Both the position numbers and the translations under genes were made by a program. This document shows, one piece after another, positions 1,734-19,046 of a DNA stretch of 64,000 bases. The DNA is from Bacteroidetes bacterium MED-G13. GTDB taxonomy: Bacteria > Bacteroidota > Bacteroidia > Flavobacteriales > Flavobacteriaceae. A model generated the notes under the pieces. It ran no database searches and had not been told where the DNA came from. It saw only the letters and a list, made by a program, of their open reading frames with translations. The DNA lies in NCBI GenBank assembly GCA_002457735.1, contig NTKO01000002.1:35433-99432 (forward strand). Direction: 5' to 3'. Position 1 is the stretch's first letter. Each line of letters starts with the position of its first letter.

Positions 1734-2956
1734 ATGATAGGTTTAGTAAGCTTAAACTATAAAATTGCACCCTTAATATAAGAGAACATTTCTACCTATT
1801 CCCTAACGAAATTTCTAAAATTCATGCACACATAAATAAAAAAGTAAAAACTCAAGGACTTTTTATTATTTCAACATGTAACAGAACTGAAATTTATTTT
1901 GAAGTCAATTTACAAGAGCTAAATGAGAATCAAGTTTTTCATTCGATTATCATGACCCTAAGTAGATTTAAAAAATTTAATGATGGCTTGAGGCCGTACA
2001 TTAAAAAGAAGAAAGGAATTGAAAAAATTTCAAAACATATATTCAGACTCTCAAGTGGACTTGAATCAATGATCATAGGTGAATTCCAAATTGTTGATCA
2101 AATAAAATCAGCATACAGTCTTGCTAAAAAGAATATAATGCTCAGCCCCACTCTTGAAAGAATGATCCAAAAATCTTTAGAGGTTAGCAAATTCATAAGA
2201 AATAATACAAGCATAGATAAAGGGGGTATTTCAGTGAGTTCAGCTGCTATCGATCAAATAGGAAGCATTAAAAATGCTCATAACCTATCCATTTTGTGTG
2301 TGGGGGCTGGAAGAACATCAAAACTCTCAGTTCAACAATTGATATCAAAAAAATTTAAAAATCTTTTTATCACCAACAGAACCAAAGCTAATGTTGATCC
2401 ATTAATTGAAAAGTTTAAATTAAAACATATTGATTACAAAAGCTGGAAGAAAAGATTACGGGACATAGATATTGTAATTTTTAGTACATCTTCAAAAACG
2501 CCTTTAATTAAAGACGATGATTTAAATGAAATTGATAAAATCCGAGCAAATAAAATAACTTTTGTTGATCTCTCAGTTCCAAGAAATATAAAATTAAAAA
2601 AGACCTACAAAAATGTTGATTTAGTAGATCTGGACAAGCTTAAAGATCAGGTTAATAGAAACTACAACAAAAGAATTTCTGAAATAAAAAAAGCCGAGTT
2701 GATGTTAACAAAGCATACAACAGAATTTAATAAATGGGTTGATAGTAGAGAGCTAAGACCAGCTATAATTTCCATTAAAAAACAATTTGATGAATTGATT
2801 ACCAATTCCCCTAAACTTAATGGTAATAAAAAGGAGGTTGAAGAAATTTATGAGAAATTTTCGGATAAAATTATTAAAAACCTGATTTCAGTAACCAATA
2901 ACGGTAAAAACAATGAAGCTCTTAAGATAATTAACAAAATATTTTCTAATGATTAA
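1734..2956 (+). CDS. hemA: Glutamyl-tRNA reductase HemA, frame interrupted by an apparent 1-base deletion
   Basis: HemA reduces glutamyl-tRNA(Glu) to glutamate-1-semialdehyde, the first step of C5 tetrapyrrole synthesis. ATG 1734 gives MIGLVSLNYKIAPL, a canonical GluTR N-terminus, but the frame stops at TAA 1779-1781. The expected continuation (NIREHF, the catalytic-Cys motif STCNRTE, then SSGLESMIIGEFQIVDQIK, the NADPH loop VGAGRTS and the C-terminal dimerisation helices) follows in another frame from about 1775 to 2956. Adding one A near 1776 would give a single protein of about 407 residues, normal for the family. This is either a sequence error or a real mutation. The longest ATG-started uninterrupted frame, 1952-2956, would lack the catalytic cysteine and cannot be the functional enzyme. 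The 3' end overlaps hemC by 8 nt. Confidence 0.88.
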
Positions 2957-4541
2957 TAAGTTAGTTGTTGGGTCTAGAGCTAGTAGCCTTGCTTTAACTC
3001 AGACAAGATATGTTATTCAAGAATTAAGAAAAACAAACCCTAACACTGAATTTGTTATAAAAAAAATCAAAACTAAAGGAGATCTATTACTAAGCAAAGA
3101 TTTAAATAAAATACTCGACAAAGGTTTTTTTGTTAGCGAAATTCAGAATGAACTGCTACATAACTCTATTGACATCGCTATTCACAGTTTAAAAGATTTG
3201 CCCTATGATGTGAATTCTAAATTAAAATCCTTTACTGTAACAAAAAGACAAGACCCTATGGATGTTCTTGTAATAAAAAAAAGACTCAAGACTAAAAAAC
3301 TAAAAGACTTGAAATTAGTTGGAACCTCATCGATTAGAAGACAGAAACAAATCCAAATGATTCATAAAGATGTGAAAGTTAAAAGCTTGAGAGGAAATGT
3401 TGAGACAAGAATCCAAAAACTTGATAAAGGTGAATATGATGGAATCATTCTTGCAGCTGCTGGACTAAAAAGATTAGGATTGGAAAAAAGAATAACAAAA
3501 TATTTTAATGTGAATGAAATGACACCCGCTGCAGGTCAGGGTGCTCTTGCGGTTGAATTCAGAAAAAATGATAAAAAAACCCTATCTATTTTAAAAAAAA
3601 TTCAAGATAAATCAACAGAGATTTGTGTTAACGAAGAAAGAAGTTTCTTAAAAAATGTTGGTGGCGGCTGTTCTTCTCCAGATGCAGTTTTATGCATCAT
3701 TGAAAATGATAAAATAAAGATTGAAGGTAAAATATTTGATAGCAATAGAAAAAAATATATTGCTGGAACCATGGTGAAAGATCTTGGAAATCATAAAGAA
3801 ATTGGAGTAAAACTAGCTAAGCAGTTAAAATCTAAGCTTTCTCCAGTATCAGCCAAACATGTCATTTTAACCAATGAAGGAGATATTAATGGGTTCTACA
3901 ATTTAGTTAAAAATAATTTTAAAGTCCATCATTTTCCTTTGTTAAAAATACTGCCTATTGAATTTAAAATTAATAATCTAGAATCTTATGATTATGTAAT
4001 ATTTACCTCTAAAAATGGTGTGAAAAACTTCTTTAGTAAAGTTAAAATATCTGAAAATGTAAAGTTTATATGCATTGGCAATAAAACAGAACAAATGCTA
4101 AATAAATATGGGTATGTTTCGTTACATACTTCTAAAAAAAATTATTCTGAAATAATGGCAACAGAACTAGAAAAAAATAAATTAATCAATGGGGAAAATG
4201 TTCTTCTTGTTCAGGGTAAAATAGCAAAAGATGATTTACGGTTCGAGCTAAAAAAGTTCTGTAATGTAGACAGAGTAAATGTTTACAGTACAAATGCTAA
4301 AGAAGATTTAAATGAAAAGCTTGAAAAGCTAATTTCTAGTATAAGCACTTTTACTGTTTTCACTAGCCCTTCAGCTTTTGATTCTTTTATTAAATTTTAT
4401 AATCCTAACAAAACAAAAATAATCAGTATTGGCAATACCACAACTAAATACATTGAATCTAAAGGTTATGATTGTATGCTAACGTCTCAAATGCAATCCT
4501 ATGAAGGGATTTCAGAATCAATAATAAAACACTTCTATTAA
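2949..4541 (+). CDS. hemCD: HemC-HemD fusion: hydroxymethylbilane synthase + uroporphyrinogen-III synthase
   Basis: The protein has 530 residues where HemC alone has about 300-310. Residues 1-300 are porphobilinogen deaminase: VVGSRASSLALTQT at the N-terminus, HSLKDLP, GTSSIRRQKQI, LRGNVETR, and Cys241 in GGGCSSPDAV, which holds the dipyrromethane cofactor. Residues from about 303 to 530 form the two-lobed HemD fold (HVILTNEGD, DYVIFTSKNGVKNFF, VFTSPSAFDSFI, IISIGNTTTKYIESKGY). The fusion would pass the unstable linear hydroxymethylbilane directly to the cyclising enzyme. The deaminase and synthase parts are contiguous with no stop or frameshift. The gene overlaps hemA by 8 nt and is followed 2 nt later by hemB, so it is clearly operonic. 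Confidence 0.95.
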   Translation: MINKLVVGSRASSLALTQTRYVIQELRKTNPNTEFVIKKIKTKGDLLLSKDLNKILDKGFFVSEIQNELLHNSIDIAIHSLKDLPYDVNSKLKSFTVTKRQDPMDVLVIKKRLKTKKLKDLKLVGTSSIRRQKQIQMIHKDVKVKSLRGNVETRIQKLDKGEYDGIILAAAGLKRLGLEKRITKYFNVNEMTPAAGQGALAVEFRKNDKKTLSILKKIQDKSTEICVNEERSFLKNVGGGCSSPDAVLCIIENDKIKIEGKIFDSNRKKYIAGTMVKDLGNHKEIGVKLAKQLKSKLSPVSAKHVILTNEGDINGFYNLVKNNFKVHHFPLLKILPIEFKINNLESYDYVIFTSKNGVKNFFSKVKISENVKFICIGNKTEQMLNKYGYVSLHTSKKNYSEIMATELEKNKLINGENVLLVQGKIAKDDLRFELKKFCNVDRVNVYSTNAKEDLNEKLEKLISSISTFTVFTSPSAFDSFIKFYNPNKTKIISIGNTTTKYIESKGYDCMLTSQMQSYEGISESIIKHFY

Positions 4542-4543
4542 TT

Positions 4544-5533
4544 ATGAAATTTCCAACAAATAGACTTAGAAGGCTTAGATACAACAAAATTCTAAGAGAC
4601 ATGATTGAGGATGTGAGAATAAATCCAACTGACTTGATATGCCCTATATTTATTATCGAAGGAACAAATATAAAAGAGCCTATTGCGGCTATGCCTGGAC
4701 AATATAGGTTTTCCGTTGATCAAGCTGTAAAACTATGTGAAGAACTTATTCAAAATAATATAAACTCAATTATATTATTTGGAATTCCAAAAGACAAGGA
4801 CAATACAGGTGAAATTTCATGCAGCTCAAATAGTATTATTCCTAAGGCAATTGAAGAATTAAAAAATGTATATGGTGATCAAATTTTTATCATAGCGGAT
4901 GTATGTAATTGCGAATACACAACTCATGGACACTGTGGTACTGTAATCGATAATGATGTAGACAATGATGCAACTCTAAAAACCCTATCCAGTCAGTCTT
5001 TAATTTTGGCTAAAAGTGGTGCCGATGCATTAGCACCCTCAGACATGATGGATGGAAGAGTTAAAGTAATAAGAGAAGTTTTAGATAATAATAAATTTGA
5101 AAAGATTCCTATTTTCCCATACTCCGTGAAATACAGTTCCGCATTTTATGGTCCATTTAGAGATGCCGCCAAAAGTAGTCCATCCTTTGGTGATAGAAAA
5201 ACTTACCAAATGAATTTCAAAAATTCTGAAGAGGCAATAAACGAAGTTAAATTTGATATAAACGAAGGTGCTGATGTGGTTATTATTAAACCTGCTTTAT
5301 CATATCTAGACATCATATACAGAATAAAAGAAAGATTTAATATTCCCATAATTGCATATAATGTTAGCGGGGAATATACAATGGTTAAAAGCGCATCAAA
5401 AAACGACTTTATTGATGAAATGGAAACAATTTTGGAAATATTACATTCTATTAAAAGATCTGGTGCAAATGCGATAATAAGCTATCATGCACTAGATATC
5501 GCAAAATATTTAAGATCCAATGAAGTACAATAA
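4544..5533 (+). CDS. hemB: Delta-aminolevulinic acid dehydratase (porphobilinogen synthase)
   Basis: HemB condenses two 5-aminolevulinate molecules to porphobilinogen. At 329 residues it has normal family length. The zinc-binding triad is intact (Cys121, Cys123 and Cys131 in DVCNCEYTTHGHCG), so this is the Zn-dependent type. The two active-site lysines lie in FPYSVKYSS (about 199) and VVIIKPALSY (about 249), the latter forming the Schiff base. ATG 4544 follows the hemCD stop by 2 nt, and the 3' end overlaps hemL by 14 nt. Confidence 0.97.
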   Translation: MKFPTNRLRRLRYNKILRDMIEDVRINPTDLICPIFIIEGTNIKEPIAAMPGQYRFSVDQAVKLCEELIQNNINSIILFGIPKDKDNTGEISCSSNSIIPKAIEELKNVYGDQIFIIADVCNCEYTTHGHCGTVIDNDVDNDATLKTLSSQSLILAKSGADALAPSDMMDGRVKVIREVLDNNKFEKIPIFPYSVKYSSAFYGPFRDAAKSSPSFGDRKTYQMNFKNSEEAINEVKFDINEGADVVIIKPALSYLDIIYRIKERFNIPIIAYNVSGEYTMVKSASKNDFIDEMETILEILHSIKRSGANAIISYHALDIAKYLRSNEVQ

Positions 5534-6806
5534 AAGCACTAAAGCATTTAAGGAGTCCCAAGCACTGATCCCTGGCGGGGTAAATTCACCTGTACGAGCA
5601 TTTAAAAGTGTAAAATGCAATCCTGTTTTTTTTGATTATGGAAAAGGAAGTAAAATTTATGATATCGATGGTAATGAATATATTGATTGTATCTCATCTT
5701 GGGGTCCGCTTATTTTTGGACATGCTGATCGTACGACACAATCCAAAATTAGTGATTATCTAAAAAGAGGAACAACATATGGTGCACCCACAGAAATTGA
5801 ATCTGAAATGGCAAAAAAAATTATTGAATTAGTTCCCTCCATTGAAAAGGTGAGGATGGTAAATTCAGGAACTGAAGCAACAATGAGTGCAATTAGACTA
5901 GCTAGGGGATATACTTCTAAAAACTTAATTTTAAAATTTGCAGGAAATTATCACGGTCATGGAGACAGTTTTTTAATTAAAGCTGGCTCAGGTGCAATGA
6001 CTTTAGGATTACCCGATAGCCCAGGTGTAACTAAAAATACTGCGAAGGATACAATTATTGCTGAGTTTAACTCAATTGAATCTGTAGCTAAACAATTCAA
6101 AAGAAATCCTGGTAAAATTGCTGCTGTTATAATTGAGCCTGTAGCTGGAAATATGGGTCTAGTTCAATCTAAAAAAGATTTTCTTAGAGAGCTTAGAAAA
6201 CTTTGCGACAAGAATAAATCATTATTAATATTTGATGAGGTAATGAGTGGTTTCAGATTGTCCCAAGGTGGAGCTCAGCAGTTATACGATGTAATTCCAG
6301 ACATTACAACTTTAGGTAAAATAATCGGCGGTGGACTTCCAGTTGGGGCCTATGGAGGTAAATCTGAGATAATGGATTACTTGGCTCCTAATGGACCGGT
6401 ATATCAAGCAGGAACGCTTTCAGGGAATCCACTGGCAATGAGTGCTGGTCTTTCAGTACTTAACCGATTAAATGATAAACTTTTCAATAAACTAGAATCA
6501 ATTTCAAAAAAAATACATGACGGATTTATGCAAAATATTCATAAAACTGGAACAAATGCCATAATTAACAGAGCAGGTTCAATGATGACTCTTTTTTTTA
6601 CTGAAAAAGAAAAAATTGAGAATTATAATGACGCAATCGCATGTGATTTAAACATGTACGCAAAATACTTTAAATCTATGTTAGATGAAGGTATATATTT
6701 ACCTCCATCTCAATTTGAATGTATGTTTATTTCCTCAGTTTACAGCACAAAAGACATTGATAAAATTATCAGTTCTAATAAAAAATCTCTTGAATCTATA
6801 AGATGA
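5520..6806 (+). CDS. hemL: Glutamate-1-semialdehyde 2,1-aminomutase
   Basis: HemL is a PLP enzyme that transfers the amino group within glutamate-1-semialdehyde to give 5-aminolevulinate; with HemA it defines the C5 route. It has 428 residues, as usual. Visible motifs are ALIPGGVNSPVRAF near the N-terminus, MVNSGTEATMSAIRLAR (PLP phosphate site), NYHGHGDSFL, LIFDEVMSGFR, and the PLP lysine at about residue 267 in TTLGKIIGGGLPVGAYGG. It overlaps hemB by 14 nt at its start and hemE by 4 nt (ATGA) at its end. Confidence 0.97.
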   Translation: MKYNKSTKAFKESQALIPGGVNSPVRAFKSVKCNPVFFDYGKGSKIYDIDGNEYIDCISSWGPLIFGHADRTTQSKISDYLKRGTTYGAPTEIESEMAKKIIELVPSIEKVRMVNSGTEATMSAIRLARGYTSKNLILKFAGNYHGHGDSFLIKAGSGAMTLGLPDSPGVTKNTAKDTIIAEFNSIESVAKQFKRNPGKIAAVIIEPVAGNMGLVQSKKDFLRELRKLCDKNKSLLIFDEVMSGFRLSQGGAQQLYDVIPDITTLGKIIGGGLPVGAYGGKSEIMDYLAPNGPVYQAGTLSGNPLAMSAGLSVLNRLNDKLFNKLESISKKIHDGFMQNIHKTGTNAIINRAGSMMTLFFTEKEKIENYNDAIACDLNMYAKYFKSMLDEGIYLPPSQFECMFISSVYSTKDIDKIISSNKKSLESIR

Positions 6807-7828
6807 AAAAAAATATATTTATTGAAAATATTAATGGAAATGTAACTTCTCGCCCACCCGTGTGGTTCATGAGACAAGCAGGAAGAATATTACCATCTTA
6901 TTTGAAATTAAAACAGAAATTTAGTTTTGATGAAATGATGCAAAATAAAGAACTAGCAGCCAAAGTCACACTACTTCCTATTGATGACCTTGGAGTTGAT
7001 GCTGGAATACTTTTTTCTGACATTTTAGTAATCCCTAAAGCTTTAGGATTAGAACTTGAATTTACTGCAAAAGGACCTAAATTTCACAATGCTTTAGATG
7101 AAAATATAATGATTGAAAATTTAAAATTTCACCCCAATAAGTTAGATTACATTTACAATAACATTAAAGAAATAAAATTTCAACGACCAGAAACTCCTTT
7201 AATTGGTTTTTGCGGTGGACCACTTACAACGTTTTTATTTATGTTTAGAAGGAACGAATCAAATAAAGATTTTAACCATGTTATAAAACTACTTTACAAG
7301 GAAAAGAAAAAATGTATTAAAATAATGGAAATGCTCACTGAAGCATCTATTGAATATGTAAATAAGCAAGTTGATAGTGGGATAGATTGCTTTCAGTTAT
7401 TTGAAACTTATTGTGGAATAATACCTGAAAAAATGTATACTGAAATTGTTCTTCCTTTTTCAAAAAGGATTTTAAATGCTGCAATGGATAAAAATTGTAA
7501 AACAATTTTTTTCCCAAAAAATTACAATAACGGACTAAAGAACATAAACAAAGATATTTGCGACATTACAAGCATTGATTGGCAGATACCACTTGAATCG
7601 GCACGAACATTGCTCAACAAAAATATTGGAATCCAAGGAAATATGGATCCAAGAATATTTTTTTCTGACAAAAAAGAAATTGAAAAATACCTTATGAAAT
7701 TAACAAGTTTTGGTGAAAAGAATTCTAATTGGATATTTAATTTGGGTCATGGTTTTATACCTGGAATTGATGTAAAAAATGTAAATTTTGTTGTTGATTG
7801 GATTAAAAATAAAAACTGGAATAGATAA
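6803..7828 (+). CDS. hemE: Uroporphyrinogen decarboxylase
   Basis: HemE removes four carboxyl groups from uroporphyrinogen III to give coproporphyrinogen III in the cytosol. At 341 residues it is of family size. The signature RPPVWFMRQAGRILPSY at about residues 17-33 carries the substrate-binding arginines; the usual tyrosine of GRYLPEY is isoleucine here. Other family motifs are FCGGPLTTF, DCFQLFETYCG and NLGHGFIPGID. It starts inside the hemL stop (ATGA) and hemN follows after 1 nt, so it is translationally coupled within the heme operon. Confidence 0.96.
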   Translation: MKKNIFIENINGNVTSRPPVWFMRQAGRILPSYLKLKQKFSFDEMMQNKELAAKVTLLPIDDLGVDAGILFSDILVIPKALGLELEFTAKGPKFHNALDENIMIENLKFHPNKLDYIYNNIKEIKFQRPETPLIGFCGGPLTTFLFMFRRNESNKDFNHVIKLLYKEKKKCIKIMEMLTEASIEYVNKQVDSGIDCFQLFETYCGIIPEKMYTEIVLPFSKRILNAAMDKNCKTIFFPKNYNNGLKNINKDICDITSIDWQIPLESARTLLNKNIGIQGNMDPRIFFSDKKEIEKYLMKLTSFGEKNSNWIFNLGHGFIPGIDVKNVNFVVDWIKNKNWNR

Positions 7829-7829
7829 A

Positions 7830-9206
7830 ATGAAAATTAACAACAAATTACTGAACAAATACAACAGAAAGGGTCCTCGTTATACCTCATACCCTCCAGC
7901 CACACATTTTTCAGAAAAATATAATGATAAGAGTTTTATAAAATCTGTAACTCTGTCAAATGATGAAAAACCAGAAAACGTATCAGTATACATTCACATA
8001 CCCTTTTGTCCGCAAATTTGTCATTTCTGCGGATGTACTACTGAATCTGGATTTACAAAACCATTTTTAGAAAGATATGTTGATGCTCTAATTAAAGAAA
8101 TTGAATTTGTATCAAAGTTGATTGATAAAAATAGAAAACTTACACAAATACATTGGGGAGGTGGAACTCCAAATGCTATTTCATTAAAATACATTAAAAG
8201 AATTACACATAAAATTCTACAATGTTTCAACCTTAATGAAGAATATGAAATGGCTATTGAATGTAGTCCAGCTCATCTTGATTACAAGCATATTGAATTG
8301 TTAAAAAGCTATGGATTTAACAGAATTTCTCTTGGGATTCAAGACTTTAAAGATGAAGTTTTAGACGCTATTAATAGAAGAAGACCAAAACATCCAATTG
8401 ACAAAATAATTGATAAAATTCACAATGAAGGTTTTACTGGAACTAATATTGATCTGGTATATGGATTACCCTTACAAACTGTTGAAGGTTTTAACGAAAC
8501 AATTGATAAGGCAATTTCTTTAAATACCGACAGAATTGTAACATTTTCATACGCTCATGTTCCATCTATTCTTCCAAGACAAAAAATATTAGAAAATATT
8601 GGATTCCCATCCTCACATGAAAAAGCAGAAATGTATAATAATGCTTTTAAAAAATTTACAGAGGCTGGATATGTACCAATTGGAATGGATCACTTTTGTA
8701 GACCTGATGACGAGTTTTATTTAGCCCTAAAAAATAACCAACTTCACAGAAATTTTCAGGGATACTGTACAACTAAAACAACAGGGCAAGTTTATGGATT
8801 TGGCGCCTCTTCAATATCTCAACTATTTTCTGCCTACAGTCAAAATGTAAAGAACGCAGCTCAATACATTAAGAAAATTAATGATAATAATACTGCTGTC
8901 TTGAGAGGATATAATCTCACGCAAAATGAAAAAATAATTAGAGATGTTATAAACTCAATCATGTGCAATTATTTTGTTGATTTTCATGAAATTGCAGAAA
9001 GGTTTGAAACTAATTCCTATAAAATCAAAGAAGTCATAGCTTTTGATAAAGAAAAATTTAAAGATTTTATAGATTTGAATTTTATGAAAATTGAAAATGA
9101 CAAAATCACTATTTCCCATGATGCAAGATTATACATAAGAAATATTGCAATGGAGTTTGACCCACTAATGGATACAAAAATTGGAACTTATTCAAAAACT
9201 ATATAA
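7830..9206 (+). CDS. hemN: Oxygen-independent coproporphyrinogen III oxidase (radical SAM)
   Basis: HemN oxidatively decarboxylates coproporphyrinogen III without O2, using S-adenosylmethionine and a [4Fe-4S] cluster. The cluster motif is Cys60-x3-Cys64-x2-Cys67 in IHIPFCPQICHFCGC. Also visible are the N-terminal YTSYPPATHF, HWGGGTPN, the RISLGIQDF strand, and the C-terminal HemN domain (about 370-440). The chosen ATG at 7830 lies 1 nt after hemE and yields 458 residues, matching the family. An in-frame TTG at 7788 would add 14 residues inside hemE and is unlikely. The HemN-specific length and motifs argue against the related HemW. Its stop overlaps the hemH start by 1 nt. Confidence 0.94.
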   Translation: MKINNKLLNKYNRKGPRYTSYPPATHFSEKYNDKSFIKSVTLSNDEKPENVSVYIHIPFCPQICHFCGCTTESGFTKPFLERYVDALIKEIEFVSKLIDKNRKLTQIHWGGGTPNAISLKYIKRITHKILQCFNLNEEYEMAIECSPAHLDYKHIELLKSYGFNRISLGIQDFKDEVLDAINRRRPKHPIDKIIDKIHNEGFTGTNIDLVYGLPLQTVEGFNETIDKAISLNTDRIVTFSYAHVPSILPRQKILENIGFPSSHEKAEMYNNAFKKFTEAGYVPIGMDHFCRPDDEFYLALKNNQLHRNFQGYCTTKTTGQVYGFGASSISQLFSAYSQNVKNAAQYIKKINDNNTAVLRGYNLTQNEKIIRDVINSIMCNYFVDFHEIAERFETNSYKIKEVIAFDKEKFKDFIDLNFMKIENDKITISHDARLYIRNIAMEFDPLMDTKIGTYSKTI

Positions 9207-10234
9207 TGAAAGGGCTATTATTAATCAACTTGGGCTCACCGGATAGCACATCAATTCCAGATGTCAAGAAATATCTTGATGAATTTTTGATGGATAAAAG
9301 AGTTATTGGTAAAAGTTATCTTTTTAGATGGATATTAGTCAAATTAATAATACTCAACTTTAGGCCAAAAAAATCGGCTAAGGCTTATAAAAAAATATGG
9401 TGGAAAGAAGGGTCTCCATTAATTGTTCTTTCTCAAAGGTTATTCAAAAAAATATCAAAAATTCTTAATATTCATGTTTCTCTAGCCATGAGATATGGGT
9501 CAATGAGTATACTGAAAGGACTTACTGAACTTAATGATAATGGAGTTAGAGATATTGTAGTTTTACCTCTATACCCTCACTACGCAATGTCTTCATATGA
9601 AACGGTAGTTGAGAAAGTAAAAGAAGAAGCTCAAAAAAATTTTCCAAATAATAATATTTTATTCATCGAACCTTTTTACAATGATCCTGACTATATAAAA
9701 TTACTTTCCAAAAAAATTGGAGATAAAATCAAGAATCTTAACTATGACCATATATTATTTTCTTATCACGGAATACCAGTTAGTCATCTCAAAATTTCTG
9801 ACCCAACAAAAAAACATTGCTATAAAATAAATGATTGTTGTTCAGTGAAATCTGATGCTCATAAAACATGCTACAAGCATCAAGTGATTGTTACCACAGA
9901 TTTAGTTGCCAAAAATTTGTCTCTTAATAAAGAAAAATTTAGTGTATCATTTCAATCTAGATTGGCTAACGAACCTTGGCTAAAACCTTATACTGATAGC
10001 GAACTTGAGAGATTGGCAAAAAGTGGAAAGAAAAATTTAGTAATTGTAACCCCAGCATTTGTAACTGACTGCCTTGAAACACTTGAAGAAATTGTCATGG
10101 AAGGTAAAGAAGAATTTTTAGAAGCTGGCGGAGAAAATTACTATTATGTACCCTGTTTAAATGATGATATGAGTTGGGCAAAACTGGTTTCAAAATGGAC
10201 TGAAAATAAGCTTACAGAATTTAATAATGCCTAA
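9206..10234 (+). CDS. hemH: Ferrochelatase
   Basis: HemH inserts Fe2+ into protoporphyrin IX to give protoheme. The 342-residue protein begins MKGLLLINLGSPDS, as expected. It contains YPHYAMSSYET, the catalytic histidine in FSYHGIPVSH (about residue 192), FQSRLANEPWLKPYTD, and the conserved glutamate region TPAFVTDCLETLEEI. A cysteine-rich stretch (CYKINDCC then TCYKH, about 209-233) follows the catalytic histidine; in this lineage it may bind a metal, but that is not established here. The start codon shares one base with the hemN stop (TAATG). Confidence 0.96.
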   Translation: MKGLLLINLGSPDSTSIPDVKKYLDEFLMDKRVIGKSYLFRWILVKLIILNFRPKKSAKAYKKIWWKEGSPLIVLSQRLFKKISKILNIHVSLAMRYGSMSILKGLTELNDNGVRDIVVLPLYPHYAMSSYETVVEKVKEEAQKNFPNNNILFIEPFYNDPDYIKLLSKKIGDKIKNLNYDHILFSYHGIPVSHLKISDPTKKHCYKINDCCSVKSDAHKTCYKHQVIVTTDLVAKNLSLNKEKFSVSFQSRLANEPWLKPYTDSELERLAKSGKKNLVIVTPAFVTDCLETLEEIVMEGKEEFLEAGGENYYYVPCLNDDMSWAKLVSKWTENKLTEFNNA

Positions 10235-11567
10235 AAGCTTTCCTAAAAAAGTAGATAATCTTATAATTGGTGCTGGTATAACCGGTTTGTCACTTGCTCA
10301 TTTTTTAAAAAAATTTAATCAAGATTTTATTATACTTGAGTCTTCTAAAAGAATTGGAGGAAATATTAATACAGTTTCAAAAAAGGGCTTTACTCTTGAA
10401 AACGGACCTAACACACTGCTTTTAGACAATAAGTCTATTCAGGCTTTAATTGAAGATTTTAATATTTCAAAAAATATCATTTTCCCAAATGAAAAGGCCA
10501 AAAATAGATTTTTAATCAAAAACCACATACTAACACCCATTCCTAAAAATCTTACTGATTTCTTGAAGTCAAACATATTGAGCTTCTCAGCAAAAATCAG
10601 AATCTTTTTTGAGCCATTTATAAAAAAACACAAAAAAGATACAAGTGTATTTAACTTTATTGTTAAAAGATTTGGTAAAGAATTTCACGACAACCTAATT
10701 GTGCCATTTTTAAATGGTATATATGCTGGGGATACCAAAAAAATGAGCATAAAATTTGTGCTTAGAAAAGTTTGGGAAATGGAACAAAAAAATGGAAGTA
10801 TTTTAAAATCTATTTTTTTAAATAAAACAAATTATCAACCAAAATCTTTTAGTTTTAAAAATGGACTTTCTGACCTTTTGGATTGTTTTAAAAAAGAACT
10901 TGATAAAAACATATTTTTAAAAATAAAAGTTACAAGTTTAACCAAGAAAAATAACCTTAATTTTGTTCAAATTAATGACGGCCAAGAAATTCAATGCAAG
11001 AATATAATTTCTACCATACCAGCACACTGTCTAAAAGATATTATTACAGATCAAAAAATAATTACTTGTCTAAAAAAAATTGAATATCATCCATTAAATG
11101 TTTTACATTTTAGCTTGGAAAGAAATAAAATTTATAGCCCCATTGATGGATTTGGAGTTTTAGCAAAACCAAGTGATAAACTATCATTTTTAGGAATTTT
11201 ATTTAACTCAAGAATATTTCCTCATCTTTCCCCTAAAAAATATGATCTAATTACTGTAATGGTAGGTGGGGCTAAACAAAAGAACATTCTTAAAAAACCA
11301 AAAAAAGAAATTGAGAAAAGAGTTATTTCGGATATCAAAAAAATTATAAATTTTGAAGGTAAAATTGTATTACTAAATCAATTTTCCTGGAAAAAAGGTA
11401 TACCGCAATATGATATGAATTTTTTAAATCTTTCTAAGTCAATAAAAAATTTTACACAAAAAAATCCTGGATTATTTATAATTGGTAATTTTCTAGAGGG
11501 TGTTTCTGTAAGTAATTGTATTAAAGCTGGACACAAAACTGCACAATTACTCTGTGAAAAAGTTTGA
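10227..11567 (+). CDS. hemY: Protoporphyrinogen oxidase, HemY type (FAD-dependent)
   Basis: This enzyme oxidises protoporphyrinogen IX to protoporphyrin IX (or coproporphyrinogen in the coproporphyrin branch). The Rossmann FAD motif IGAGITGLSLAHFL is at about residues 13-26, followed by SSKRIGGNINTVSK and GFTLENGPNTLL, the standard PPOX N-terminus. The C-terminal FAD loop reads FIIGNFLEGVSVSNCI. Its 446 residues fit the family. Known HemY enzymes use O2, which contrasts with the O2-independent HemN in the same operon. Some databases call this family hemG, although E. coli HemG is an unrelated flavodoxin-like protein. It is the last gene of the heme directon, and its 3' end overlaps the convergent fbpC by 21 nt. 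Confidence 0.93.
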   Translation: MPKSFPKKVDNLIIGAGITGLSLAHFLKKFNQDFIILESSKRIGGNINTVSKKGFTLENGPNTLLLDNKSIQALIEDFNISKNIIFPNEKAKNRFLIKNHILTPIPKNLTDFLKSNILSFSAKIRIFFEPFIKKHKKDTSVFNFIVKRFGKEFHDNLIVPFLNGIYAGDTKKMSIKFVLRKVWEMEQKNGSILKSIFLNKTNYQPKSFSFKNGLSDLLDCFKKELDKNIFLKIKVTSLTKKNNLNFVQINDGQEIQCKNIISTIPAHCLKDIITDQKIITCLKKIEYHPLNVLHFSLERNKIYSPIDGFGVLAKPSDKLSFLGILFNSRIFPHLSPKKYDLITVMVGGAKQKNILKKPKKEIEKRVISDIKKIINFEGKIVLLNQFSWKKGIPQYDMNFLNLSKSIKNFTQKNPGLFIIGNFLEGVSVSNCIKAGHKTAQLLCEKV

Positions 11568-12512
11568 GCAACCTTTATCAAAATAAATTAAATCTTCTTC
11601 TAAATATTCAAAGCAAACCTTAGAGTTTATTTTAATCGGTTCTTTTGAGAAAACTGACCAAATATTATTATTATATAAACCAATAATCTTATAGTCTTTT
11701 CCTTGAAAAAAACATTTCTTTGCATTCATTGACAATTTTGAATGTTTTACTATTTTTATATTCTCAGGTCTTATATAGAATGTTTTTTTACCGATGGATA
11801 ATTTATTTATATCACCTAAAATTTCAGCACAATAACAATTAGCAGGTTTACAATACATTGTAGTTGGGTTCGAAAATTGTTGTACTACTCCAGCCTTAAA
11901 TACTAAAATTTTATCAGAAATATTTAATGCATCATTAATATCATGGGTTACCAATATTGTAGTTGTTTTAGTTTTCTTTACAATATTGCAAATTTCATCT
12001 CTAACTTGATGCTTTATATTTGAATCCAAGTTACTAAAAGGCTCATCCAATAATAACAAGTCAGGTTCTCTAATAATCGATCTTGCAATACAAGCCCTTT
12101 GTTGTTCCCCACCTGAAATTTCGTGAGGATATCTGTTCAAAATTGATTTTAAATTTGTTAATGAAACGACTGAATCAAAATTAGAATTAAACTTTATATC
12201 TAAATTAAAGCAAATATTTTCTCTTATATTCAAATGTGGAAATAAGGCGTAATCTTGAAATACATAACTTATTTTCCTTTGCTGAGGAGGTATAAAGGTA
12301 TTATGGCTACTAATTATTTTACCATTTAAAATTATTTCACCACCATCAATTTTTTCTAGACCCGAAAGACATTTAAGGAAAGTTGATTTTCCAGCTCCAC
12401 TCTCACCTACAAATGACAACAATTCACCCTTTTGCAATTGAAAATTTAGTTTTTTTAAAACTGGTAGGTTATCAGCGTATGATTTTATTAAGTCTTTAAC
12501 TTCTAGAAACAT
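11547..12512 (-). CDS. fbpC: Ferric-iron ABC transporter, ATP-binding protein
   Basis: This 321-residue ATPase has Walker A GESGAGKST (about residue 36), a Q-loop in VFQDYALFP, signature ISGGEQQR, Walker B LLLDEPFSNLD and the switch histidine in LVTHD. A C-terminal TOBE-like part (about 235-321, YIRPENIKI) is typical of FbpC/PotA-type importers. It overlaps the permease gene upstream by 17 nt and is the last gene of fbpA-fbpB-fbpC. With the partner genes it should power periplasm-to-cytosol uptake of Fe3+. Its 3' end overlaps the convergent hemY by 21 nt, so the two transcripts are antisense there. Confidence 0.92.
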   Translation of the reverse strand: MFLEVKDLIKSYADNLPVLKKLNFQLQKGELLSFVGESGAGKSTFLKCLSGLEKIDGGEIILNGKIISSHNTFIPPQQRKISYVFQDYALFPHLNIRENICFNLDIKFNSNFDSVVSLTNLKSILNRYPHEISGGEQQRACIARSIIREPDLLLLDEPFSNLDSNIKHQVRDEICNIVKKTKTTTILVTHDINDALNISDKILVFKAGVVQQFSNPTTMYCKPANCYCAEILGDINKLSIGKKTFYIRPENIKIVKHSKLSMNAKKCFFQGKDYKIIGLYNNNIWSVFSKEPIKINSKVCFEYLEEDLIYFDKGCSNFFTE

Positions 12513-14064
12513 TTATCCTGCTTATAATATTTTTAAAAATAATTAATAGTATACTGCAAACAAATATAATTACTAAAGAATAAATTGAAGATAATGGAAG
12601 CATTTCTTCAATTGCGAACTCATATGTTTGAGTTGCAAGGGTATCAAAATTAAATGGCCTCAGTATTAAAATTATTGGCAACTCTTTCATTAAATCAATA
12701 AAAACCAAAATCAATGCAGAAACAAAAGATAATTTATTTACAGGTAAATATATTTTTTGAAAAATTTTAAATCTTTTTAATCCGAGTGATTCTGCAGTTA
12801 AGTCATACGTTTTAGGTAATTTTTCAAATCCAGATTTAATAGGAGATTTTCCAACAGCCATGAATCTAATTAAGTATGCGTAAATGAGAATAAAAAGATA
12901 TACATAAAAATTACCCAAAAGATTAATGGAATCAATATTTTTATCAATACTTGTGAAATATATAATTATTGCAAGAGCAATGACTGCACCAGGGATTGAG
13001 TAACCAAGTGATATAAATTGATTTATATAAAAATATATTTTTGAATTTGAAAATCTCTCATTAAACAAAAAATATACAGAAACAACCAGTATAATTATTG
13101 AAGATATTAATGAAATTGATACCGAATTAATTGTTAATTGAAGAAGGTTTGATATATCAATTTTATCAAAGTTGTCTATTACATTTGAAATATTAAATAA
13201 AACAGGAATGAAAAAAGAAAATATAATTGGTATGAGGCAAGCCAGGTAAATTAATAGTTTTTGATTAATAGTACTATTAATTAGTTCAATTGGATTAGAA
13301 TTTTTTAAGTAAGAAAATAGCTTTTTTTTATTTATTTTTTTTTCTATAAAAAATAAAAACGCTACAATAAATAAAAGAATTGAAGAAAGCTGTATAGCGG
13401 CACCAGTATCATTCATTGAATTCCATGTTCTAAAAATACCAATAGTATATGTATTTACTCCAAAATATTTTACTGCACCGTATTCATTTAACACCTCCAT
13501 AATAACTAAAAAAAGACCAGAAAAAATAGCTGGTTTTGAAAGTGGAATTATAATTTTAAAAAAGGACTTGTATACACTTAACCCTAAAATCTTGCCCATG
13601 TTAATAAATTTTGAACCCATCAAACTAAAAGATATTCTTGAAACAGCATATATGTATGGAAATAAGGAAAATGAAAGTATTATGCCTAAAATCTCTAGTT
13701 GTAAAAAATCGGCTTTAATTTTTAGTGGCCCTGTAAAACTCAATATCTCAGCATAAGTAAAAGCCATAATATAAGTTGGAATTGAAAGAGGTAAAAAAAG
13801 AAGTACATCAATAATACTTCGCCCATAAAATCTAAAATTACTGACATACCAAGCTGGAATTATCCCAAGAATAAGTGAAAATACTGAGGTTATGATAATT
13901 AACTTAAAAGTACTGGAGCTGTAATCTAATAAAAGGTTCTCAAACACATATACCAAAGATTCTGTCTCGGAAAAGAAAGAGGTAAAAACAAGGAATAATA
14001 TTGGAAAAAAAATTATTCCAAATATTAAAAAAGCAAATTTTTCGTTTTTTTTAAAAGTATTCAA
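12496..14064 (-). CDS. fbpB: Ferric-iron ABC transporter, fused permease
   Basis: The 522-residue protein has about twelve hydrophobic helices in two homologous halves, as in FbpB/SfuB permeases that carry both transmembrane domains on one chain. EAA-type loops that dock the ATPase are visible in each half (GKILGLSVYKSFFKIIIPLSKPAI at about 160, split as AESLGLKRFKIFQKIYLP near 425). The start is TTG at 14064; a stop lies three codons upstream, so no ATG start is available. It follows fbpA by 6 nt and overlaps fbpC by 17 nt. Confidence 0.92.
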   Translation of the reverse strand: MNTFKKNEKFAFLIFGIIFFPILFLVFTSFFSETESLVYVFENLLLDYSSSTFKLIIITSVFSLILGIIPAWYVSNFRFYGRSIIDVLLFLPLSIPTYIMAFTYAEILSFTGPLKIKADFLQLEILGIILSFSLFPYIYAVSRISFSLMGSKFINMGKILGLSVYKSFFKIIIPLSKPAIFSGLFLVIMEVLNEYGAVKYFGVNTYTIGIFRTWNSMNDTGAAIQLSSILLFIVAFLFFIEKKINKKKLFSYLKNSNPIELINSTINQKLLIYLACLIPIIFSFFIPVLFNISNVIDNFDKIDISNLLQLTINSVSISLISSIIILVVSVYFLFNERFSNSKIYFYINQFISLGYSIPGAVIALAIIIYFTSIDKNIDSINLLGNFYVYLFILIYAYLIRFMAVGKSPIKSGFEKLPKTYDLTAESLGLKRFKIFQKIYLPVNKLSFVSALILVFIDLMKELPIILILRPFNFDTLATQTYEFAIEEMLPLSSIYSLVIIFVCSILLIIFKNIISRINVSRS

Positions 14065-14070
14065 GTTGAT

Positions 14071-15093
14071 TTATTTCCATCCGGTTTTATCAAAAACCTT
14101 AATTGCATCATCTCTAAATGACCCAAGCAAATTTAAATCTAAATTATCAATTTTAAAATCCCCCCAGGATGAAACAATATCCGATGGATTAACAAGGGGA
14201 TTTGCAGGATACTCATAGCTATTATTTACATATATATTTTGTGCCTCCTCCCCGGTTAAATACTCTAATAATTTTATTGCATTTTCTTTATTAGGTGGAT
14301 TTTTTGTCATAGCATAGCCTGAAATGTTAATGTGCGTACCTCTATCTCCTTCAGCTTGATTAGGAAAAAATATTGAGACAGAATTTCCAGCATCAATTTC
14401 CGCTAGTTTTTCCGATGATAATAACAAACCAATGTAATAGGAATTTACTATTGCTAAGTCACCTTGACCTGCAGCAATTGCCTTTACCTGATCTCTGTCA
14501 TTTCCTTTGGGATTTCTTGCAAAATTATTAACTAAACCTTTAGACCATTTAGTAACATCATCTTTACCAAGATTTGCATACATAGCTGACATAAGAGCTT
14601 GATTATAGGCATTCGAAGATGACCTAACTAATATTCTACCCTTCCATTTTGGATTTGCTAAATCCTCATAAGTACTTAATTGATCCAATGAAACTCTATC
14701 TTTACTGTAAACTATAAGTCTTGCTCTGTAAGTAATTGGTATCCAGTACTTATGAGGATCCTTTAACTCACTTCTAACATTTGCATCAATTTTATCATTA
14801 ATAATTTTTTGAAATAACTCCATTTCAACTCCCTTTTGAAGTTTTCCTGCGTCAACAGTAACATAAAGATCAGCCGGGCTATTTAAACCTTCATTTTTTA
14901 ATCTTTCCAAAAGTTCATCATCTCCTGCTTTAACAATATTAACCTTAATTCCTGTTTTTTCTTCAAATTTTTTGTATAAGAGCTTGTCTACCTCATAATG
15001 TCTTTTACTATAAATGTTAATTTCATTTTTTTCATTTTTAGTACATGAGCCTAAAAAAATGGAAATTGAAATTAATATTAAATATCTTTTCAT
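14071..15093 (-). CDS. fbpA: Ferric-iron ABC transporter, substrate-binding lipoprotein
   Basis: ATG 15093 gives a lipoprotein signal MKRYLILISISIFLGSC with a lipobox cysteine, so the protein is probably anchored by lipid. An upstream in-frame TTG (15126) is rejected because it would place coding sequence over the 19-bp operator. The 340-residue protein has FbpA/FutA family marks: NIYSKRHYEVD near the N-terminus, the iron-ligand tyrosines in ITYRARL and NSYYIG, and RGTHINISG. Its role is to capture Fe3+ outside the inner membrane and deliver it to FbpB. It heads the fbpABC operon and is divergent from an AraC-type regulator. Confidence 0.93.
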   Translation of the reverse strand: MKRYLILISISIFLGSCTKNEKNEINIYSKRHYEVDKLLYKKFEEKTGIKVNIVKAGDDELLERLKNEGLNSPADLYVTVDAGKLQKGVEMELFQKIINDKIDANVRSELKDPHKYWIPITYRARLIVYSKDRVSLDQLSTYEDLANPKWKGRILVRSSSNAYNQALMSAMYANLGKDDVTKWSKGLVNNFARNPKGNDRDQVKAIAAGQGDLAIVNSYYIGLLLSSEKLAEIDAGNSVSIFFPNQAEGDRGTHINISGYAMTKNPPNKENAIKLLEYLTGEEAQNIYVNNSYEYPANPLVNPSDIVSSWGDFKIDNLDLNLLGSFRDDAIKVFDKTGWK

Positions 15094-15102
15094 TTTGTTG
15101 TT

Positions 15103-15121
15103 ATTTAGAGTTATTCTAAAT
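15103..15121. promoter_or_regulatory. 19-bp inverted repeat, putative iron-regulator operator (copy 2)
   Basis: ATTTAGAGTTATTCTAAAT has perfect 7-bp arms (ATTTAGA / TCTAAAT) around five bases. The arms and spacing are identical to the palindrome before the TonB receptor (1545-1563). It ends 10 nt from the fbpA ATG, so a bound protein would block transcription start or early elongation. A near -7 element (TATCTTG on the minus strand, about 15126-15132) lies just upstream. Two copies with the same arms, both before iron-uptake genes, make a shared operator likely. Confidence 0.6.
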
Positions 15122-15267
15122 TGCAAGATAGTTATTAAAATAAAAAAACCTCGTGAAGTGCTTGATTATTTTATCATTCATTTATTACAAACTATTAAAA
15201 TACTTCAAATGAAAAAGAAGAAATTGGTTTAATTATTGATAAATTTGCTTTAGTTAAATAATCTGCA

Positions 15268-16140
15268 ATGAATCTTGTTAGTAGCTGTCAATCTTTTGAA
15301 GTTGAAGTAGAAGAAAATTTTTTTGTTGTAAAAAATGAAAATCAAGAAAAAAATAATTTAAACTACAGAAAAACTATTGATAATAGTTTTATCCAATTCC
15401 ATTTTGCTTTGTCAGGCAACTCTGTTTTTAAATTCAGTGTTTTTTATAAAATGGAAGTTAAAAATGGGGATTATGTTGTTCTTTATAATCCAAACAAAAA
15501 TTTACCTGTTAATATTACTGTTAATCAAAACTCAACTCTATTTTCAATTTTTATTTCTATAAAAAAATTTCATAAGCTTTTTTCTGAAGATGCAGATAAT
15601 ATTCATTTTTTAAAAGATGAAAATATTTCCGAAAAGTATTATCACAAGAGTAATATTCCAAATTCAACCTTACTAATTTTAAATGAATTAAAACGATTTG
15701 ATAATAATAGCTCGACAAAAAAACTTTTTTTGAAAGCCAAGATATATGAATTATTTAGTTATATATTCAATAAAAACAGAGATCTTAATGTAGAGCAATG
15801 CCCCTATTTAAATAATGAAGAAAACTTTAAAAAAATCAAAAAAGCTAAAGAAATAGTTATCGAGAATATGACAAATCCGCCTACGTTAAAAGATTTATCT
15901 TTTGAAATTGATTTAAGTCTAAAAAAATTAAAAGAAGGATTTAAAAAAATATACGGTAAACCTGTTTACCAGTTTTTACTGGAACACAAAATGGAGTTAG
16001 CTAAAAAATTGCTTTCAGATAGCAAAAACAATGTTAATGAAGTAAGTTTGAAACTTGGATACAGTACTGCAAGTCATTTTATTGCAGCTTTTAAAAATAG
16101 ATTTGGAGTTACCCCAAAGATGTTTAAAAAAAATTATTGA
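15268..16140 (+). CDS. AraC-family transcriptional regulator
   Basis: The C-terminal 95 residues are a classical AraC/XylS double helix-turn-helix: PTLKDLSFEIDLSLKKLKEG is the first HTH, and VNEVSLKLGYSTASHFIAAF followed by KNRFGVTPKMFKK the second. The N-terminal 180 residues are a poorly conserved, probably cupin-like sensor region. The gene is divergent from the iron importer fbpABC across about 175 nt. AraC regulators of the PchR type next to iron genes usually respond to ferric chelates, so control of fbpABC or of the neighbouring receptor is a reasonable inference. It is followed after 5 nt by tRNA-Leu and then the carotenoid genes, which it could also influence. A possible -7 element TAAATTTG is at 15240-15247. 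Confidence 0.88.
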   Translation: MNLVSSCQSFEVEVEENFFVVKNENQEKNNLNYRKTIDNSFIQFHFALSGNSVFKFSVFYKMEVKNGDYVVLYNPNKNLPVNITVNQNSTLFSIFISIKKFHKLFSEDADNIHFLKDENISEKYYHKSNIPNSTLLILNELKRFDNNSSTKKLFLKAKIYELFSYIFNKNRDLNVEQCPYLNNEENFKKIKKAKEIVIENMTNPPTLKDLSFEIDLSLKKLKEGFKKIYGKPVYQFLLEHKMELAKKLLSDSKNNVNEVSLKLGYSTASHFIAAFKNRFGVTPKMFKKNY

Positions 16141-16244: not shown

Positions 16245-17711
16245 ATGAAGAAAAAGAAGAATATTTTTATAATTGGATCAGGATTTTCATCTCTCTCAGC
16301 TGCATGTTATTTAGCAAAAGAAGGAAATAACGTAACAGTGTTTGAAAAGAATAACTCCCTAGGTGGCAGGGCCCGACAATTTAAAGAAGATGGCTTTACG
16401 TTTGATATGGGGCCTAGTTGGTATTGGATGCCTGGGGTTTTTGAGAAATTTTTTAGTGATTTTGGAAAAAAAGTATCTGATTACTATAAACTTAAAAAAT
16501 TAAATCCTGCATATAGGGTTATTTTTGGTAAAAATAACTTTGTTGATATTGCCGATAATCTAGAAAAGATTTGTGAAGAATTTGAAAAAATTGAAGTAGG
16601 TTCAGGAAAAAAATTAAAAAACTATTTAAAAATTGCTAAAGAAAATTATGAGCTAGGTGTTGAAGACATGCTTTATAAGATGCCTGGAAAATCTCCTTTG
16701 GAGTTAGTTTCATTTAAAACAATTAAAAAAATTAGATTCTTTTTATCGAATATTAAAAAGGATGTTAGAAAAGATTTTAAGGATCCCAGGCTTAGATCAA
16801 TATTAGAATTTCCGGTATTGTTTTTAGGTGCTAAAGCTTCCAATACCCCGTCTTTCTACAACTTTATGAACTTCGCTGATTTTGGTTTGGGAACCTTTCA
16901 ATCAGAAAATGGATTTTATGATTTAGTCAAGGCAATGGTTGAGCTTGGCAGAAGCTTGGGAGTGAAATATTTAACAAATCAATCTGTTAATAAAATTATA
17001 GTTCAAAATAAAAAAGTTGAAAAACTTTTAGTTAACGAAAAAGAATTCATTTGTGATATTCTTATCTCTGGCGCTGATTATAACCATACCGAATCGTTAC
17101 TTGAAGAAAAATATCGACAATACAAACCAAAATATTGGAAACGAAAAGTATTTGCTCCATCATCCTTACTTTTTTATGTAGGTTTTAATAAAAAATTAAA
17201 AAATGTAAAACACCACAATCTAATCTTTGATACTGATTTTGAAATGCATGCTAGTGAAATTTATGAGAATCCTATCTGGCCAACTGACCCCTTATTTTAT
17301 GCAAATTTTACCTCAAAAACCAATCCTAAAACAGCACCTCAGGGATATGAAAATGGATTTTTCTTAATTCCGATTGCCATTAACCTTAGTGATACTGATG
17401 AAATCAGAAAAAAATATTTTGATTTCATAATAAGAAAATTGGAGTTATATACTGGACAAAAATTAAAGAATTCAATAGTTTACAAGAAAAGCTTCTGTGT
17501 TAATGATTTCAAGAAAGAGTATAACTCATACGGTGGAAATGCATATGGATTAGCTAACACCTTAATGCAAACAGCCTTTTTAAGACCTAAAATTAAAAGC
17601 AAATTGGTGAAAAACTTGTATTTTTGTGGTCAATTAACAGTACCTGGCCCTGGAGTCCCACCGGCTGTTGTCTCTGGAGAACTTGTGGCTGGCCTAATTA
17701 GTAAAATTTGA
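16245..17711 (+). CDS. crtI: Phytoene desaturase
   Basis: CrtI is an FAD enzyme that introduces double bases of unsaturation stepwise into phytoene, normally four steps to lycopene. The N-terminal dinucleotide motif IIGSGFSSLSAACYLA is followed by FEKNNSLGGRARQF and FDMGPSWYWMP. The C-terminal family signature YFCGQLTVPGPGVPPAVVSGE is interrupted by no frame problem. Its 488 residues are normal. It opens the crtI-crtB-crtZ-crtY set and starts 14 nt after tRNA-Leu. The gene order and company favour lycopene formation for zeaxanthin; a diapophytoene (C30) enzyme is less likely given the partners. Confidence 0.94.
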   Translation: MKKKKNIFIIGSGFSSLSAACYLAKEGNNVTVFEKNNSLGGRARQFKEDGFTFDMGPSWYWMPGVFEKFFSDFGKKVSDYYKLKKLNPAYRVIFGKNNFVDIADNLEKICEEFEKIEVGSGKKLKNYLKIAKENYELGVEDMLYKMPGKSPLELVSFKTIKKIRFFLSNIKKDVRKDFKDPRLRSILEFPVLFLGAKASNTPSFYNFMNFADFGLGTFQSENGFYDLVKAMVELGRSLGVKYLTNQSVNKIIVQNKKVEKLLVNEKEFICDILISGADYNHTESLLEEKYRQYKPKYWKRKVFAPSSLLFYVGFNKKLKNVKHHNLIFDTDFEMHASEIYENPIWPTDPLFYANFTSKTNPKTAPQGYENGFFLIPIAINLSDTDEIRKKYFDFIIRKLELYTGQKLKNSIVYKKSFCVNDFKKEYNSYGGNAYGLANTLMQTAFLRPKIKSKLVKNLYFCGQLTVPGPGVPPAVVSGELVAGLISKI

Positions 17712-17750
17712 TATTATATTTTTGTAAATTGAAATCATTAATTTGAGCAA

Positions 17751-18590
17751 ATGAAAGAAATATTTGATAAGGTTTCATATGAGTGTAGTGAAAGAGTTAC
17801 AAAAACTTACAGCACATCCTTTTCAATGGCTACTAAACTTTTGTCAAAAGCAATAAGAAAAGATATTTATAACATATATGGCTTTGTTAGATTTGCTGAC
17901 GAAATCGTTGATTCATTCCATAGTTATAATAAATCTGAATTATTTAATTCTTTCTGTCAAGATCTTGATAAGGCTTTATTAAATAAAATTAGTCTTAATC
18001 CTATTCTTAACTCTTTTCAGCATACTTTTCATAAATATTCTATTGATAGAGATTTAGTTGAATCATTTATGAAAAGTATGAAAATGGACTTGAAAAAGAA
18101 AAAATATTCTTCCGTTAAAGAGTATAAAGAATACATCTATGGATCGGCAGATGTTGTTGGTTTAATGTGTTTAAAGGTTTTTGTTCAAGGAAATGATGAA
18201 CAATATAAAAAACTTAAAAAAAATGCAATGAAACTTGGATCAGCTTTTCAGAAAGTAAATTTTTTAAGGGATATAAAAGCTGATCAGCAAAATTTAAAAA
18301 GATCATACTTCCCAAATACTCAATTTAATAAATTAAGTGAATCAGAAAAAAATGAGATAGTTAACGAAATTGAAGACGATTTTAGAATTGGACTACAGGG
18401 TATTAAAGAACTACCCATTGTTGCAAAATTTGGTGTCTTTATTGCATACAGATATTATAACCAATTATTAAAAAAATTAAAAAAAACACCTGCTAGAGAA
18501 ATTATTAATCAAAGAATTAGGGTGCCAAACTTAAAAAAACTTGAACTTTTAACCAGAAGTTATGTCAAATATCAACTAAACCTTTTGTAA
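17751..18590 (+). CDS. crtB: Phytoene synthase
   Basis: CrtB condenses two geranylgeranyl diphosphate molecules to phytoene. The two aspartate-rich motifs are present: ADEIVDSFH (about residues 46-54) and NFLRDIKADQQ (about 170-180), which bind the Mg-diphosphates. Also typical is YGSADVVGLM. The protein has 279 residues. The start follows crtI by 39 nt, the widest gap in the cluster, with a possible -7 element TATTTTTG at 17717-17724. It is followed immediately by crtZ. No GGPP synthase gene lies in the window, so that precursor must come from elsewhere. Confidence 0.95.
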   Translation: MKEIFDKVSYECSERVTKTYSTSFSMATKLLSKAIRKDIYNIYGFVRFADEIVDSFHSYNKSELFNSFCQDLDKALLNKISLNPILNSFQHTFHKYSIDRDLVESFMKSMKMDLKKKKYSSVKEYKEYIYGSADVVGLMCLKVFVQGNDEQYKKLKKNAMKLGSAFQKVNFLRDIKADQQNLKRSYFPNTQFNKLSESEKNEIVNEIEDDFRIGLQGIKELPIVAKFGVFIAYRYYNQLLKKLKKTPAREIINQRIRVPNLKKLELLTRSYVKYQLNLL

Positions 18591-19046
18591 ATGGAAGAAA
18601 TTAAAATAGCAATAGTATTTATATTAACTTTTCTATTTATGGAGTTTATGGCTTGGTTTTCTCACAAATTCATAATGCATGGTTTTTTATGGTCACTTCA
18701 TAAAGATCATCACAACCAAAATCTTAAAAAATCTTGGTGGGAAAGAAATGATTTATTTTTTGTCTTTTATGCTGTAGTAAGTATGAGTTTTTTCTATTCA
18801 CAAGTTGAGCTTGGGTTTAAATTTGGGTTTGCTATAGGATTTGGAATTATGGCTTATGGTTTAACGTACTTTATAGTCCATGATATATTCATTCACCAAC
18901 GTTTTAAATTTCTTAGAAAAGCAAATAATTGGTATGCTAAAGGGGTTCGCAAAGCTCACAAAATTCATCATGCAAATATAAAAAAAGATGGAGGTGAAAG
19001 CTTTGGAATGTTATTTCCACCACTAAAGTATTTTAAAGATAAGTAA
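18591..19046 (+). CDS. crtZ: Beta-carotene hydroxylase
   Basis: CrtZ hydroxylates both beta-rings of beta-carotene to form zeaxanthin. The 151-residue membrane protein belongs to the fatty-acid-hydroxylase superfamily. Its di-iron histidine boxes are intact: HKFIMHG, HKDHHN, HDIFIHQRF and HKIHHA. Hydrophobic segments at the N-terminus and around residues 55-100 anchor it in the inner membrane. The ATG directly abuts the crtB stop. The end of crtZ runs into the open frame of crtY, so the two are probably translationally coupled. Confidence 0.95.
   Translation: MEEIKIAIVFILTFLFMEFMAWFSHKFIMHGFLWSLHKDHHNQNLKKSWWERNDLFFVFYAVVSMSFFYSQVELGFKFGFAIGFGIMAYGLTYFIVHDIFIHQRFKFLRKANNWYAKGVRKAHKIHHANIKKDGGESFGMLFPPLKYFKDK

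Follow-up and report, generated by a model that had tools for sequence, protein, structure and literature searches.

A one-base break in hemA of a marine flavobacterial heme operon, and apparent exchange of heme loci between related species

The question raised by this locus is whether an uncultured flavobacterium has lost its entry to heme synthesis or whether a single base is missing from its assembly. The window, the 64,000-nucleotide stretch of contig NTKO01000002.1 of Bacteroidetes bacterium MED-G13 (GCA_002457735.1) that was analysed, carries a heme operon whose first gene, hemA, is interrupted shortly after its start. The frame that opens at ATG 1734 on the forward strand reads MIGLVSLNYKIAPLI and then meets a premature TAA at 1779–1781, so that the 5′ fragment (1734–1781, +), as read from the sequence, comprises the start and 14 native codons. 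The remainder (1775–2956, +; 393 codons), which runs NIREHFYLF...STCNRTE, begins one base back, at 1775 in the −1 frame, and is open through 2956. Its downstream part alone (1781–2953) scores 259.2 bits against the NCBIfam model TIGR01035, above the curated cut-off of 209.55, and the genome has a PF05201 match above cut-off; a profile search of the whole genome returned a single GlutR_N match with one stop (TAA) inside it. The catalytic Cys motif S/T-CNRTE is present, but its frame differs from that of ATG 1734. The −1 frame is closed upstream by TAA at 1760–1762 and contains no ATG, GTG, or TTG between that stop and the catalytic Cys; rescue of the gene by a simple alternative start codon is thereby ruled out. 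The frameshift after ATG 1734 and the position of the catalytic Cys beyond it, both described in an earlier note made from the sequence alone, are thus as reported: the break is real in the sequence as given and weak as biology.

The earlier note also held that the rest of the operon is intact, and all genes from hemCD to hemG are indeed open. Following hemA on the same strand are a hemCD fusion of porphobilinogen deaminase and uroporphyrinogen III synthase, named from the sequence reading (2949–4541), hemB (4544–5533), hemL (5520–6806), hemE (6803–7828; PF01208), hemN (7830–9206; TIGR00538), the ferrochelatase gene hemH (9206–10234; TIGR00109), and a hemG/hemY-type protoporphyrinogen oxidase gene (10227–11567; TIGR00562). 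The 5′ part of a gene for a FecA/siderophore-type TonB receptor (1–1483, −) diverges from hemA and continues to the left of the window, and on the right an ABC uptake operon (11547–15126, −) encodes an ATPase (11547–12512), a permease (12496–14064), and a binding protein (14071–15126). The window genome is a 1.06 Mb draft in 32 contigs, 82% complete, and was compared with 20 congeners to give a set of 21 genomes. Its nearest relative, G018, is the single-cell genome AG-337-I03, with 91% nucleotide identity to the window and a hemCD orthologue that is 83% identical.

In the relatives, as in the window, hemA heads an operon of the order hemA-CD-B-L-E-N-H-G; the placement of the start codon and first 14 codons out of frame is found in the window assembly alone. 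In the alignment of hemA 5′ ends from related genomes, proposed in the earlier note as a check, all 10 other congeneric copies found are intact and open, none has a frame break at the junction, and each is one base longer than the window copy, the difference lying inside an A-rich stretch. At the break these copies read AP[LVI][KQ]IRE without a stop. The earlier note was therefore right that the continuation lies one frame away, but the Asn that it took as the expected residue is K or Q in the relatives, so that the window differs from them by a substitution beside the missing base as well. The window and G018 differ in length, by a synonymous change, and by a substitution, all within a few bases, and the flanking stretches are identical. 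No other copy of the hemA junction turned up when viral contigs were searched for the exact pattern, nor was one found in phage records.

Loss of heme synthesis elsewhere in the genus has a different form. The genes hemA, hemB, hemE, and hemH are all missing from 9 of the 20 congeners, and at least six congeners have no hem operon at all at the syntenic site, where the flanking genes are retained and HmuY and a TonB receptor occupy the site or adjoin it. In G020 (L042), only HmuY lies between the TonB receptor, an orthologue of that on the left flank of the window, and the right-flank ABC ATPase; in G002 (L043), DUF4856 and the ABC ATPase flank HmuY, which takes exactly the position occupied by hemA-hemG in G003, G007, G012, and G016; and in G010 (L041), the ABC ATPase has HmuY and a TonB protein resembling heme receptors as its immediate neighbours. 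The ABC right flank is thus retained without hem in these three genomes, whereas in G006, G014, and G015 (L083–L085), an araC-type gene abuts HmuY and the hem and ABC genes are both absent. The site could not be read in G005, G009, and G011 because of contig ends or missing pieces. As judged from these loci, heme synthesis is lost in the genus through absence of the whole operon and not through decay of hemA. Six genomes (G002, G005, G006, G010, G014, and G015) lack hemA, hemB, hemE, and hemH and have COX1, the pattern of a heme auxotroph; COX1 is kept in most hem-less genomes, was not found in G020, and is partial in G011. The hem-less cells would presumably need heme from outside. Their HmuY-family protein adjoins a TonB receptor, as in the HmuY/HmuR system of Porphyromonas gingivalis (PF14064; PMC2873494), and the best NCBIfam matches of the receptor include heme receptors; unlike in that system, these matches are below the curated cut-offs, and heme binding is putative.

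The window genome does not show the auxotroph pattern of a missing pathway with retained heme enzymes, because its hem operon is otherwise complete and a heme-copper oxidase (COX1) is present. The earlier note had proposed that an intact second hemA would remove the biological weight of the break, and none was found by profile search in the sequenced 82% of this genome or in any of the 21 genomes. ALA synthase of the C4 route gave no match above cut-off in the window genome, only superfamily matches below it. HmuY had no match there, and the stretches checked, which include the rest of the contig (C12), contain neither HmuY nor its TonB partner. With no second hemA, ALA synthase, or HmuY, and with a heme-copper oxidase present, a real null would be costly. 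G018 has an intact hem operon and a remnant of HmuY with in-frame stops (L033, about 3640–3912). Given the absence of HmuY from the one and its remnant in the other, both genomes look dependent on their own heme synthesis, and this lowers the likelihood of a true hemA null.

Downstream of the break, strong purifying selection acts on hemA along the window genome's own branch. Over 391 codons the pairwise dN/dS between the window and G018 is 0.12, and the polarised changes on the window branch since the split comprise 7 nonsynonymous and 11 synonymous, about like those on the G018 branch (10 nonsynonymous to 11 synonymous), as compared with an expectation of ~3.9 nonsynonymous per synonymous without constraint. 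It follows that hemA worked through nearly all of the branch and that a real break must be very recent; the relaxed constraint and accumulated lesions of an established pseudogene are not seen, all 393 codons being open. We infer that a technical indel error is the probable cause of the break. The single-base deletion in the A-rich stretch of the assembled gene would have arisen in sequencing, amplification, or assembly, and in the living cell an intact glutamyl-tRNA reductase would supply a heme operon that is itself intact. From its kinship, size, and fragmentation, the window genome appears to be a single-amplified genome like its sister, and the pipeline for the AG-337 single-cell genomes, the sister's plate, has a reported rate of 3.0 indels per 100 kb (PMC6122165). 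The hemA break is the sole frame break in the 80 kb of the 99 kb contig C12 that is covered by homologues, in a check that recovered 19 of 25 planted one-base deletions, and no break was found in a further 41 kb outside this contig, where six of the eight sampled stretches are uninformative because they have no homologues in the comparison loci. One break in the ~120 kb of coding sequence checked overall is not above the published rate and needs no biology. The window break resembles the indel errors of such assemblies in being a lone one-base deletion in an A-rich stretch; it differs from them in that a substitution adjoins the length change, slightly more than a plain homopolymer slip would leave. 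Also against an error, heme synthesis is clearly dispensable in several congeners, so that a real break is possible, and the part missing from the 82% complete genome could contain a second hemA or an uptake system.

A real and very recent deletion, which would leave a null hemA and a cell or young lineage dependent on outside heme, ALA, or other precursors as a first step to the hem-less state, is in our judgment unlikely, and loss of heme entry in the window lineage is unproven. Absence of hem from the same site in the six or more congeners shows that loss is tolerated in the genus, no other errors were seen in contig C12, and a FecA-like receptor adjoins the hem operon, all of which would suit a real deletion; the downstream frame is nevertheless still constrained, every hem-less relative with a readable site has HmuY and a TonB receptor, neither of which was seen in the window genome, and losses in the genus take out the entire operon, none of the hem operons found having just one gene in decay. 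Between the two outcomes offered in the earlier note, error or loss of the C5 entry to heme, the weight of evidence is on the side of an error or of a mutation that is very young; constraint, the lone break, the indel rate, and the lack of HmuY/TonB argue against an established C5 loss. It is very improbable that hemA is still decoded across the break, whether through slippage of the ribosome into the −1 frame, transcriptional slippage, or a non-canonical restart at the stop (ATA TAA). Overlap of the two frames at the stop and conservation of the protein downstream speak for it, but CCC TTA ATA TAA does not fit the X XXY YYZ heptamer, in line with the lack of a slippery heptamer observed in the earlier note, the longest run of A or T in CCCTTAATATAAG is two bases, and all ten relatives are in frame, so that recoding is not conserved. 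Programmed or transcriptional slippage was rejected because there is no site for it at the junction. A restart at the stop would remove the first β-strand of the catalytic domain of the known GluTR fold. We give least credence of all to functional replacement, in which the unsequenced 18% of the genome would hold an intact hemA or a different route to ALA: the completeness of 82% leaves room for it, but a second hemA was seen in none of the 21 genomes, and the best ALA-synthase-like match scores 200 bits against a cut-off of 338.6, control genomes showing how widely this superfamily rings.

Of more weight than the break itself, which at face value asserts a loss of heme synthesis that should not be concluded from the window assembly, is the comparison of the loci. 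The presence or absence of hem requires five changes on the rpoB tree, whereas on the HmuY tree a hem-less clade is separated from a hem-bearing set by a single change (support 95/99), G009 being counted as hem-bearing although its site could not be read. This clade, and its mismatch with the rpoB tree, suggest that species gain or lose heme synthesis by trading alternative versions of the locus with one another. G020 and G003 have RpoB proteins that are 99.9% identical, but the TonB receptor of G020 has 94% identity with its G002 counterpart and 71% with that of G003; abcA is 92% and 77% identical, and abcB 87% and 90% identical, to those of G002 and G003, respectively. Topologies in which G020 is forced together with G003 and G012 are rejected, with p-AU values of 3e-50 for the TonB receptor, for which some rows are truncated at the locus ends, 7e-8 for HmuY, and 9e-17 for abcA. 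The window genome (G000) and G010 have 90–93% identity at 16245–19046 and only 58–72% across abcA-araC. Among hem-bearing genomes, the hem genes show the expected groupings (G003 with G012, G000 with G018, and G008 with G016), which is consistent with mostly vertical descent of the hem-bearing version. The simplest reading of these alignments and trees is that the locus is replaced by recombination in its flanks between related species, and the direction of each exchange is inferred. It is quite likely that species exchange a version with the full hem operon for one that lacks it and has its own HmuY clade, by recombination of this kind. That the locus is switchable and, jointly, that the hemA break in the window is a genuine early step of a hem-bearing cell toward outside heme is doubtful.

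Heme auxotrophy is reported to be common in uncultured bacteria (Kim et al. 2021, as cited in PMC11139205), and a heme-dependent strain of the Flavobacteriaceae, S0825, has been isolated from marine sediment (PMC11139205). Like the aquatic auxotrophs by gene loss in that citation of Kim et al., several congeners without the hem operon keep heme enzymes and have the HmuY/TonB pair. In contrast to that account, as far as it is cited, the difference in this genus is one of presence or absence at one syntenic site, at variance with the rpoB tree, and the window genome itself retains the operon. A limited literature search found no report of syntenic exchange of hem-bearing and hem-less loci, although one may still exist. 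The comparison points to a streamlined marine flavobacterial genus in which a swap of locus versions between related species can alter whether a species is a heme prototroph or an auxotroph. Such exchange would be a concrete, testable route to public-good dependence, and the HmuY type may serve as a marker to predict which uncultured strains need added heme.

Apparent exchange boundaries lie in two of the loci. In G020 (L042, 7659–14058, compared with L034 and L043), where HmuY is 81% identical to that of G002, there is an apparent breakpoint near abcA/abcB, which is read as allelic exchange. When G010 (L041, 2860–8238) is aligned with window positions 11547–16140, the low identity across abcA-araC gives way to high identity from 16245, placing an exchange boundary between araC and that position. 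Within an operon that is otherwise conserved, hemH of G007 (L036, 16273–17250) is 39% identical to that of the window, as compared with 80–84% in other congeners, and is likely to be a gene replacement.
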